A DNA stretch of 64,000 bases from Sandaracinobacteroides saxicola (GTDB taxonomy: Bacteria > Pseudomonadota > Alphaproteobacteria > Sphingomonadales > Sphingomonadaceae): contig NZ_CP059851.1 in NCBI RefSeq assembly GCF_014117445.1, positions 3,274,501-3,338,500 of the forward strand, read 5' to 3'. The translations under genes and the position numbers were made by a program. The notes beneath the pieces were generated by a model. The model worked only from the letters and a program-made list of their open reading frames with translations. It ran no database searches and was not told the origin of the DNA. This document shows, one piece after another, positions 4,246-7,275 of this stretch; positions within the stretch are counted from its first letter, which is position 1; each line of letters begins with the position of its first letter.

Positions 4246-4727
4246 TGGCCCTGCCGGGCGTAGAGCGAGAGGCGGGCGACGATCTGGTCGGCGACGGTGT
4301 CCGCCAGCCGTTCGAGCGCGGTGGTCTCGGCAGCGACGGTCGCATATTCGGAGCCGACGACATCGATGCCGGCATCCGAGCCGGCGGTGGCGTCGAGCAC
4401 CGGCTTGTCGCTGCCGACCGGCGTGAGCTGATAGCGGGCGCGCAGCGTGCGGCGTTCGCGGATGATCGAATTGTCGCCGCGCACGCCGAAGCCGTCGATG
4501 CGGTCGTCGAGCGCGATCGTCAGGCGGTAGCGGACCTCGCCGCCTGGTTTCAGCCGCTGGTTGAGGCGGTCCCGCATCAGGAAGCCGGCCTTGTCGGGGA
4601 TGGGGGCGATTTCGATCTGCGACAGGAGCGTGGCGGTGGGGCCGGCCTCCCCGCCGGAATAGATGGGCGTGAGGCCGCAGCCGGGCAGCGCCAGCAGCAG
4701 GGCGAGGGCGGCGAGCCTAGGCGACAA
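4242..4727 (-). CDS. lptE: LPS assembly lipoprotein LptE
   Basis: A 161-residue lipoprotein with signal peptide and lipobox LPGC (Cys about residue 17). The sequence GLTPIYSGG after the cysteine, the basic LRARYQLT strand and the C-terminal helix fit LptE, the plug lipoprotein that sits in the LptD barrel and delivers lipopolysaccharide to the outer leaflet of the outer membrane. The leuS-lptE-holA order is widely conserved in proteobacteria and supports the call. The start lies 11 bases inside the end of leuS; the stop overlaps the holA start. Confidence 0.88.
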
Positions 4728-7275
4728 GGTTCACCAGCCGGTCAGGCACGACGATGATCTTCTTCGGCGCCACGCCGTTGAGGGCCGCGGTGATTTTCGG
4801 CAGCGCGAGGATGGTCGCCTCCACGCTATCGCGCGCCAGGCCCTTGGGCAGGGTGGCGGTGTCGCGCAGCTTGCCGTTGACCTGGACGGCGTAGGTGACG
4901 CTGTCCTCCACCAGCAGCGCGGGATCGGCGACGGGCCAGGGGGCGTTGGCGATGAGGCTGGTGTTACCGAGCGACGCCCAGGCTTCCTCCGCCACGTGCG
5001 GGATCATCGGGGCGACGAGGCGCAGCAGCGTGCGGGCGGCGTCGGCGCGGGTGGCGCAGGGTGATGCGCGTTCGATGGCGGTCGCCAGTTCATAGGCGCG
5101 GGCGACCGCCTTGTTGAATTGCAGCCGGTCGATGTCCTGGGTGATGCCGTCGATGGCGCGGTGGAGCGCGCGGGCGAGCGGCAGGTCTTCGCCGCTGCTG
5201 GTGTCAGCCCCCAGCGCCCCGATGCGCCAGACGCGCTGGACGAAGCGCCAGGCGCCTTCGATGCCGGCCAAGGACCAGGCGAGGTCGCGTTCCGGCGGCG
5301 AATCGGAGAGCATGAACCAGCGCGCGGCGTCGGCGCCGAACTGGTCGATGATGGCGTCGGGATCGACGACATTCTTCTTCGACTTCGACATTTTCTCGGT
5401 GCGGCCGATGGTGATGGGGGCGCCGCTGGCGATCTCGACGGCGGTATCGCCGCGTTTTTCGACCAGCGCCGGTTCCAGCCACTGGCCGTCGGCGTTGCTG
5501 TAGGTCTCGTGCGTGACCATCCCCTGCGTGAACAGGCCGGCGAAGGGTTCGGTGAGGCCCAATTGCCCCATGTGCGCCAGCGCGCGCGTCCAGAAGCGGG
5601 CGTAGAGCAGGTGCAGGATCGCATGTTCGACGCCGCCGATATATTGGCCGACGGGAAGCCAGGCCTCCGCCTCGGCACGGTCGAAGGGCCTGTCCGCCGG
5701 CTGGCTGGCGAAGCGGATGAAATACCAGCTGCTGTTGGTGAAGGTGTCGAGCGTGTCGGTCTCCCGCCGGGCGGGTGTGCCGCAGGCGGGGCAGGGGACA
5801 TGTTTCCAGGTCGGATGCCGGTCGAGCGGGTTGCCGGGGACATCGAAGCTGACATCCTGGGGCAGCACCACCGGCAGGTCGGCGCGGGGGACGGGGACGG
5901 CGCCGCAATCCTGGCAATGGATGATCGGGATCGGCGTGCCCCAGTAGCGCTGGCGGCTGACCCCCCAGTCCCGCAGGCGGAACACGGTGGTGCCCTGGCC
6001 CCAGCCTTCGGCCTCGGCCCGGGCGATGACGGCGCGCTTGGCGCTTTCCACGTCCAGGCCGTTCAGGAAATCCGAATTGATGATGCGGCCGGGGCCGACA
6101 TACGCCTCGTCAGCGATGGGCGTGTCCTCGTCCCCGACCTCCGCGACGACGCGCGGCACGGGCAGCATATATTTGCGGGCGAAGTCGAGGTCGCGCTGGT
6201 CATGCGCCGGGCAGCCGAAGATGGCGCCGGTGCCATAGTCCATCAGCACGAAATTGGCGACAAAAACGGGCAGCGTGCGGCCGGGGATCAGCGGGTGGGC
6301 GACGCTGAGGCCGGTGTCGAAGCCCTTCTTCTCCTGTGTCTCGATCTCCGCCGCCGACGTGCCGCCGGCGCGGCATTCCGCGATGAAGGCGGCGAGCAGC
6401 GGCTGCGCGGCGGCGCAGGCGGTGGCCAGCGGGTGGTCGATGGCGACGGCGGCGAAGGAGGCGCCGAAGAGGGTGTCCGGGCGGGTGGTGAAGACGTCGA
6501 AGGCGGCAATGCCGTTGGCGTGAGGGGACTCCCCCACCCCCGGCCCCTCCCCTGAAGGGGAGGGGAGATGGAAGGTGAAGCGCAACCCTTGCGACTTCCC
6601 GATCCAGTTTTCCTGCATCAGGCGGACTTTTTCCGGCCAGGCGTCGAGCGATTTCAGGTCGTCGGCCAGTTCGCCGGCGAAGGCGGTGATGCGCAGGAAC
6701 CATTGGGTGAGCTTGCGGCGCTCGACCGGCGCGCCGGAGCGCCAGCCGCGGCCGTCGATTACCTGTTCGTTGGCCAGCACGGTCATGTCGACCGGGTCCC
6801 AGTTTACCCAGGCGTCCTTCCGCGTCACAAGGCCAGCGTCGAGCATGTCCAGGAACAGCGCCTGTTCGTGGCCGTAATAATCGGGTTCGCAGGTGGCAAG
6901 CTCGCGGCTCCAGTCCAGCGCGAAGCCGAGGCGCTTCAGCTGCGCCTTCATCGCGGCGATGTTGGCGCGGGTCCACTCGCCGGGATGCACCCGTCGTTCG
7001 ATGGCGGCGTTTTCGGCGGGCATGCCGAAGGCGTCCCAGCCCATCGGGTGCAGCACCTCGTGCCCCTGCATGCGCCGCGCGCGGGCGATCACGTCGCCCA
7101 TGGTATAGTTGCGGACATGGCCCATGTGGATGCGGCCCGACGGGTAGGGGAACATCTCCAGCACGAAGCTCTTGGGTTTCGGGCTGGCGCTGTCGGCGCG
7201 AAAGGTGCCCTCCGCCTCCCAGCGCGCCTGCCAGCGGGCATCGGCGGCCGCAGGGTTGAACCGGCTGTCACTCAT
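4717..7275 (-). CDS. leuS: Leucine--tRNA ligase
   Basis: An 852-residue class I synthetase that charges tRNA-Leu in the cytoplasm. The HIGH signature is HMGH (50-53), KMSKS is intact (628-632), and the editing domain contains TTRPDTLFG and [10 protein letters not shown]. The start ATG 7275 overlaps the upstream stop in TGATG; the frame stays open far upstream but that part is unlike any LeuRS. Residues 237-252 (nt 6520-6567) are not native looking: they are encoded by a CCCCTCCCCT palindrome and read [16 protein letters not shown], inserted at the hairpin leading into the editing domain. The frame is kept, so the enzyme is probably functional. Confidence 0.96.
6520..6567 (-). repeat. Palindromic repeat inserted in frame in leuS
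   Basis: The core is a 10-bp perfect palindrome with a two-base loop (CCCCTCCCCT at 6544-6553, its complement at 6556-6565), followed in the gene direction by GGCCGGGGGTGGGGGAG. Sequences of this type are familiar as dispersed intergenic repeats in G+C-rich bacteria. Here one encodes 16 residues rich in Pro, Gly, Ser and Glu between RFTFH and [16 protein letters not shown] of LeuRS, a loop where other LeuRS proteins are shorter. Confidence 0.75.

Follow-up and report, generated by a model that had tools for sequence, protein, structure and literature searches.

Palindromic elements of Rickettsia (RPE) lie in frame within many proteins, where they are tolerated; RPE-4 and RPE-6 belong to CGTC families, and RPE-1 is a longer element. 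REPs are defined as palindromic sequences of about 14-40 nt that are highly similar to one another and present in several copies per genome (PMC12306157); they lie mainly outside genes. Two superfamilies of short multi-copy palindromes, GTAG and CGTC, are found in sphingomonads too, as single units or inverted dimers (Di Nocera et al., 2013; PMC3733652). CGTC REPs carry CGTC, TGTC or CCTC at the stem end and have an 8-9-bp stem, with A/T at the first and second positions, and a loop of 4-5 nt. RPE-4 and RPE-6 were assigned to CGTC-4/1 repeats. CGTC-type REPs have no dedicated transposase, and that study too arrived at no mover for them (PMC3733652). Inverted REP doublets that fold as one hairpin are called REPINs, and have been described from extragenic space (PMC3116915). 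The entry of REPs into ORFs is already published: it includes tRNA synthetases of the sphingomonads E. litoralis and S. alaskensis, and recB of two xanthomonads, in which different REPs occupy nearly identical positions (Di Nocera et al., 2013; PMC3733652).

The locus described here lies in a 64-kb stretch of DNA from a sphingomonad (the window, by which we mean the whole stretch that was analysed; its genome is G000). A first-pass annotation had noticed a palindromic repeat in frame in leucyl-tRNA synthetase (LeuRS). In our judgment this is very probably a single copy of a dispersed REP-like element that inserted in a permissive loop of leuS as a selfish or neutral passenger, originating from one strand at the replication fork and moved by an enzyme other than a recognisable Y1/RAYT of this genome.

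The insert in leuS and its copies in the genome

The leuS gene (4717..7275, minus strand) encodes a LeuRS of 852 aa. The ORF matches TIGR00396 (leuS_bact) in a single stretch over residues 10-851 (E 2.3e-286, 952 bits against a cut-off of 548), and its matches in the PDB are LeuRS, the best solved structures being those of Neisseria and E. coli. The annotation had described 6520-6567 as encoding 16 Pro/Gly/Ser residues; these 48 nt do encode 16 residues, of which 11 are Pro, Gly or Ser. The unit in common with other genomic copies, whose extent of about 42 nt was judged from the shared length, occupies 6526..6567 (minus strand) and forms an in-frame, REP-like insert at residues 237-250, following RFTFH and preceding the TTRPDT motif. 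An AlphaFold2 model from a 31-row alignment has a mean pLDDT of 87.8, and the only segment of at least three residues with pLDDT below 50 is 241-251, which in the model sits between predicted strands 227-236 and 258-263. The insert would thus make up the turn of a beta-hairpin before TTRPDT, a turn that in the LeuRS family leads into the CP1 editing domain; a PF13603 match at 222-420 supports this placement.

The core of the element is an inverted repeat with perfect 10-bp arms, CCCCTCCCCT at 6544..6553 and AGGGGAGGGG at 6556..6565 (100% complementary), separated by a 2-nt loop. The stem can alternatively be counted as 9 bp with a 4-nt loop, and its first base is C. Direction is set by an asymmetric C-rich arm, CTCCCCCACCCCCGG (6529..6543, plus strand), which is also present in other copies. 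The outer end of the window copy reads GACT (6527..6530, plus strand). In 13 of the 33 copies read, this end is GACG (CGTC on the other strand), compared with 2.8% of window 7-mers; it is the far end of the asymmetric arm and some 13 nt away from the stem. The copies have in common a directional arm rich in C and the palindrome, and many also end in GAG. The copy in the window is one unit, not an inverted doublet, and five of the six reading frames of the element are without a stop. Within the window the palindrome pattern has one site only, that in LeuRS. The chance expectation for the pattern at up to two mismatches is 0.06 per window (at least one site in 6 of 100 shuffles), and the 23-nt asymmetric part, at up to three mismatches, was matched in none of 100 shuffles of the window.

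A search of the genome for the same repeat, as the annotation had proposed, found dozens of copies. Blastn gave 43 matches at E <= 10, the own site included, and 37 at E <= 1.1e-4. The best of the other sites are 92-100% identical to the LeuRS element across 36-50 nt. At up to two mismatches the palindrome has 49 sites genome-wide and its reversed control 7, although some two-mismatch sites, such as the CCTCTCCCGC types, may come from another family; the directional pattern CCCACCCCNNNCCCCTCCC at up to one mismatch has 38 sites against 3 for its control. In palindromic form, length, similarity and copy number the element agrees with the REP definition. Some copies are composite (loci L033, L034, L036, L038, L041, L047 and L048 of the own genome), with an extra small CGCTCGGCTGCGCCGAGTCG-like hairpin between the arm and the main palindrome.

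Copies lie between as well as within high-GC3 ORFs, as judged from 3-kb loci and mechanical ORFs with GC3. The ORFs covering a copy number 23. Nine of these, chosen by us, and LeuRS as a tenth were scanned, while several of the rest have the copy at an end, possibly outside the true gene. The ten are LeuRS, a UbiH-like hydroxylase, valyl-tRNA synthetase (ValRS), CoaBC, BchB, an FdhF-like oxidoreductase, GlyRS beta, ArgJ, UvrA and an enoyl-CoA hydratase. All but one score above an NCBIfam cut-off for the family expected; the exception is the FdhF-like ORF, which is cut by the locus end and scores 579.8 against 582.15. The suggestion that the repeat family can also enter coding DNA is thus upheld by in-frame copies in other proteins of the same genome, including ValRS, UvrA, GlyRS beta, CoaBC and ArgJ. 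In GlyRS beta (L030, ORF 184-2736) another stretch that resembles a repeat, GTPVKGGATRVASGGGGAIARSGDTPSAAGDASESLPLAGGELG, is found upstream of the one derived from the REP.

The insert is missing in the nearest relatives. Their LeuRS loops (L059, L140/G030, L141/G003 and G136) are 11-12 residues shorter, and the native loop of equal length in close relatives that would have spoken for an endogenous sequence was not seen among them. The genus of the host consists of one genome only, and these relatives share no more than about 82% identity over the part of the LeuRS region that was compared. The length of the loop nonetheless varies naturally: more distant sphingomonads (L062, L177, L179, L180, L182 and L192) have loops of 25-33 aa, at least as long as that of the window, in which our custom patterns found no REP motif, and the turn of Neisseria LeuRS is longer here than that of the near relatives. 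A native variable loop that contains a GC-rich palindrome by chance could draw on this variation; it is highly improbable all the same, since a chance palindrome is contradicted by the 92-100% matches elsewhere in the genome and the loops of near relatives are short.

Recurrence at the LeuRS and ValRS loops

Among 397 genomes of the family (Sphingomonadaceae), 388 have a LeuRS match at E <= 1e-20. These matches were screened by length and coverage. Reading covered those that were flagged plus a sample, which makes the number of insert genomes found a lower bound. In-frame inserts with REP-family motifs occur at the LeuRS loop in at least 12 of the 388 (G000, G028, G098, G114, G192, G223, G254, G277, G303, G341, G348 and G389), 11 of them palindromic and one (G098) decayed. 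In the 11, the insert folds more strongly than its shuffles, with z between -2.5 and -14.9. Left out of the 12 are G117 and G213, with a frameshift in the insert, G264, whose contig is broken there, three palindromes of genus g21 that are short and were noted by eye, and L072 (named Sphingomonas), which is outside the 388 but was kept in the tree described below. The loop set comprised 97 loci, of which 92 were read (L175, L186, L194, L195 and L196 were dropped); loops were delimited by anchor matching, so that STRPDT variants are covered. Members of one genus can differ. In g29, a TCGACTTCGCTCG-type repeat occurs in G028 and doublets of CCCCTCCC type occur in G277 and G341, whereas G133, G194 and G240 have no insert; in g64, the inserts of G348 and G389 belong to different families, and G205 and G248 have none.

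The ValRS loop was surveyed because the own genome has an insert there (L008). ValRS was matched in 145 of 149 genomes, and 81 of the 145 were retrieved, of which 38 had been flagged for the shape of their match, 42 had not, and one was the own; 79 loci were read, the contigs of L248 and L259 ending near the loop. All 42 unflagged loops are of 13-16 aa. Long loops (23-63 aa) were found in 36 of the 79, and 34 of these 36, with lengths of 25-63 aa, contain a REP-family motif, which places REP-family inserts in at least 34 of 145 genomes. The motif groups are CCCCTCCC, the GGTGGAGG type, TCGACTTCGCTCG, GAGCCTGTCGAA, CCCTCTCCC and one CATTCCGA; the patterns were drawn up once the inserts had been read, in some cases to fit a single decayed copy, and serve for sorting, not testing. 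By eye, many of the relatives' LeuRS and ValRS inserts look like inverted doublets. The ValRS loop of G023 (L258) holds a different type of insert (HSELVSESS...ILKHVQDDE), one end of which is marked by CGTCATTCCGA and the opposite end by GGATGACG; it resembles classical alphaproteobacterial CGTC repeats.

On quick trees built without the loops, presence and absence require at least 10 changes for LeuRS and at least 18 for ValRS, and keeping the families apart gives 13 and 29. In 20 shuffles of the labels the changes numbered 11-13 for LeuRS and 20-29 for ValRS. Counted as empty were LeuRS L062, L177, L179, L180, L182 and L192 and ValRS L264 and L265, the last of which has a 9-bp palindrome. 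The inserts are widely scattered, yet somewhat more clustered than random labels, as expected from shared descent. Such changes are mute on gain versus loss; it is the presence of different families at one site that allows gain to be distinguished from loss.

How often the loops are filled bears on whether they are preferred. Random placement would give about 0.002 copies per genome (39 nt x 204 sites, the count in G114, where most were found, over 3.4 Mb), compared with 0.23 in ValRS. Because the ValRS frequency is so far above random, tolerance needs help, be it faster loss elsewhere, preferred loops, or useful inserts and selection. A true hotspot, in which the ValRS and LeuRS loops are preferred at the DNA level through a target motif, structure, or fork or transcription context, would account for this excess. 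It would also fit the three tRNA synthetases among the ten scanned in-frame hosts (hypergeometric 4.9e-5 for an assumed 25 of 3200 genes, a rough figure as the genes were hand-picked), and the ValRS inserts in all five LeuRS-insert genomes of the ValRS sample (G000, G028, G098, G114 and the frameshifted G117). We nevertheless consider such a preference unlikely. The common loops hold six motif groups (by post hoc patterns), and the LeuRS entry points, judged by eye, are spread about 1-5 codons past RF.F, both of which fit tolerance better than a single target motif; several families and scattered entry points together favour tolerance.

The inserts might instead be functional, with an mRNA hairpin that slows or regulates synthetase translation or mRNA decay, or with a disordered peptide that alters editing or localisation. 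Recurrence in two class I synthetases and the RNA fold of the loops would be in keeping with a function: z is -4 or below in 35 of 55 long loops (24 of 36 in ValRS and 11 of 19 in LeuRS), down to -14.9. The excess is modest in the window's own LeuRS loop (z -2.5) and little or none in L176 (1.5), the own ValRS L008 (-1.7) and L267 (-1.3); the decayed insert of G098, whose motif was added to the patterns after the insert was read, has no excess fold (z 1.5). Since sequence, family, length and orientation are not conserved, and near relatives manage without the insert, we rate function as slightly less likely still than a DNA-level preference.

Several draft contigs (L195, L248 and L259) stop at the LeuRS or ValRS loop or close to it, in the case of L195 clearly within an insert, and the contig of G264 breaks inside its LeuRS insert. 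Assemblers seem to break at such loops, and drafts may undercount inserts. In G117 (L175) and G213 (L186) an apparent frameshift falls within the palindromic insert region of LeuRS. These ends and frameshifts in relatives could raise the suspicion that the window's insert is a sequencing or assembly artefact, a suspicion to which we give hardly any weight in view of a single-contig genome, 99.9% complete, and a LeuRS frame that is open throughout. They are also a warning: assemblies break at loops of this kind, and alignments can be led astray by them.

Orientation, repeat supply and the moving enzyme

Element orientation follows the replication arm. In a hand-compiled list of 52 elements, 25 point in the plus and 1 in the minus direction below 1.8 Mb, compared with 9 plus and 17 minus above (Fisher p 3.9e-6). 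When any two breakpoints are allowed, 44 of the 52 agree, a number reached in none of 5000 random draws (p 2e-4). A strict set of 33 exact pattern sites gives 15+/0- and 6+/12- (Fisher p 5.4e-5, free-breakpoint p 0.0022), and removal of three weak or symmetric elements leaves 23+/1- and 8+/17- (Fisher p 3.0e-6). On the right arm only 17 of 26 are minus, and orientation is mixed past 2.7 Mb. Origin and terminus were placed by GC skew only, which is noisy: over 496 sampled 1-kb pieces the mean is positive in the first arm and negative in the second, with noisy bins. By eye, no dnaA was seen at the contig start, where the ORFs inspected were those of 300 aa or more that overlap the first 6 kb. 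Gene direction was considered as a cause of orientation and rejected: of 11 copies within genes, 9 agree with the arm in direction and 5 with the gene.

IS200/IS605 elements show a strand preference at replication forks. The arm bias suggests that the copies originate from a single DNA strand that becomes accessible at the fork, and strand-specific insertion at forks, as described for IS200/IS605 (PMC6006769), would fit by analogy.

The supply of repeats differs among genomes. Family-1 sites on both strands (reversed control in parentheses) number 38 (3) in G000, 79 (0) in G254, 20 (0) in G277, 19 (0) in G348, 11 (0) in G003, 204 (30) in G114, 4 (4) in G133 and 1 (1) in G030; they are at or near the control in G192, 8 (8), G303, 34 (21), and G341, 27 (18). 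Family-2 sites, with controls of 0, number 103 in G389, 96 in G223, 78 in G028, 18 in G098, 16 in G003, 6 in G303 and 0 in G000 and G030. The source family of the LeuRS insert is abundant in 8 of the 12 genomes, G098 with its decayed insert among them; the insert of G114 is mainly of a type other than family 1.

A search of G000 for PF01797 (Y1/RAYT) gave 0 matches. The family was present in only 4 of 20 genomes searched; the search was positive in 5 of 14 control genomes, including E. coli and Caulobacter. RAYT was rejected as the mover on these grounds, the lack of PF01797 in G000 and the few genomes with any, and by this profile the moving enzyme would appear not to be encoded in G000 as a recognisable Y1/RAYT. 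Y1_Tnp (PF01797) genes were seen in three insert-bearing genomes: L207 (G028), L208 and L212 (G114), and L209 and L211 (G223).

Proposed permissive loops and relation to described repeats

The passenger explanation can be put together as follows. A directional element of about 36-42 nt, present in dozens of copies, would have inserted in the hairpin turn leading to the CP1 editing domain, and the insert would have survived because five of its six frames are open, its length preserves the frame and it yields a polar, Pro/Gly/Ser/Glu-rich loop without predicted order; the LeuRS that carries it presumably works. The LeuRS and ValRS loops would be permissive sites, filled independently in related genomes by REP families that, where tested, are mostly abundant in their genome and often form inverted doublets. 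Most probably, then, such elements are passengers, either selfish or neutral, and the filter on them would be the tolerance of disordered loops together with an intact frame.

A bolder claim, possible but rather doubtful to us, is that the CP1-entry turn of LeuRS and, above all, the FATLGW/YPN loop of ValRS are recurrent landing pads for several unrelated repeat families (in ValRS in about 1/4 of Sphingomonadaceae genomes), delivered by replication-strand-specific machinery and kept above the neutral expectation. If so, two essential synthetases would be archives of REP activity. What the survey shows is that short palindromes of a mobile type keep rewriting the same loops of essential enzymes, and that repeat DNA makes up much of the length variation of LeuRS and ValRS loops in sphingomonads. 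Strand bias and trapping at a readable locus would together offer a direct test of what moves RAYT-less REPs.

The new point, relative to the published entry of REPs into ORFs, is that several REP families recurrently fill one and the same loop of LeuRS and of ValRS; repeated use of these loops was not found in the literature searched, which included the main text of Di Nocera et al. (2013; PMC3733652). The element is like CGTC REPs in having no associated transposase (PF01797 0 in G000), but differs from them in form. It lacks CGTC, TGTC or CCTC at the stem end, with GACG lying about 13 nt away instead of a tag beside the stem, and its 10-bp stem with a 2-nt loop starts with C and not with A/T. 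From GTAG REPs it differs in having neither GTAG at the stem end nor a RAYT in the genome. Compared with REPINs, the window copy is a single unit in a genome without a Y1 domain, whereas the doublet inserts of relatives are REPIN-like by eye. The likeness to RPE drawn in the first-pass annotation holds for behaviour, in-frame insertion in host proteins, as judged from descriptions of RPE, and is not supported for family: Rickettsia is another lineage, RPE-4 and RPE-6 are CGTC families, and the element described here differs from CGTC repeats in its stem, the position of its tag and its tail.
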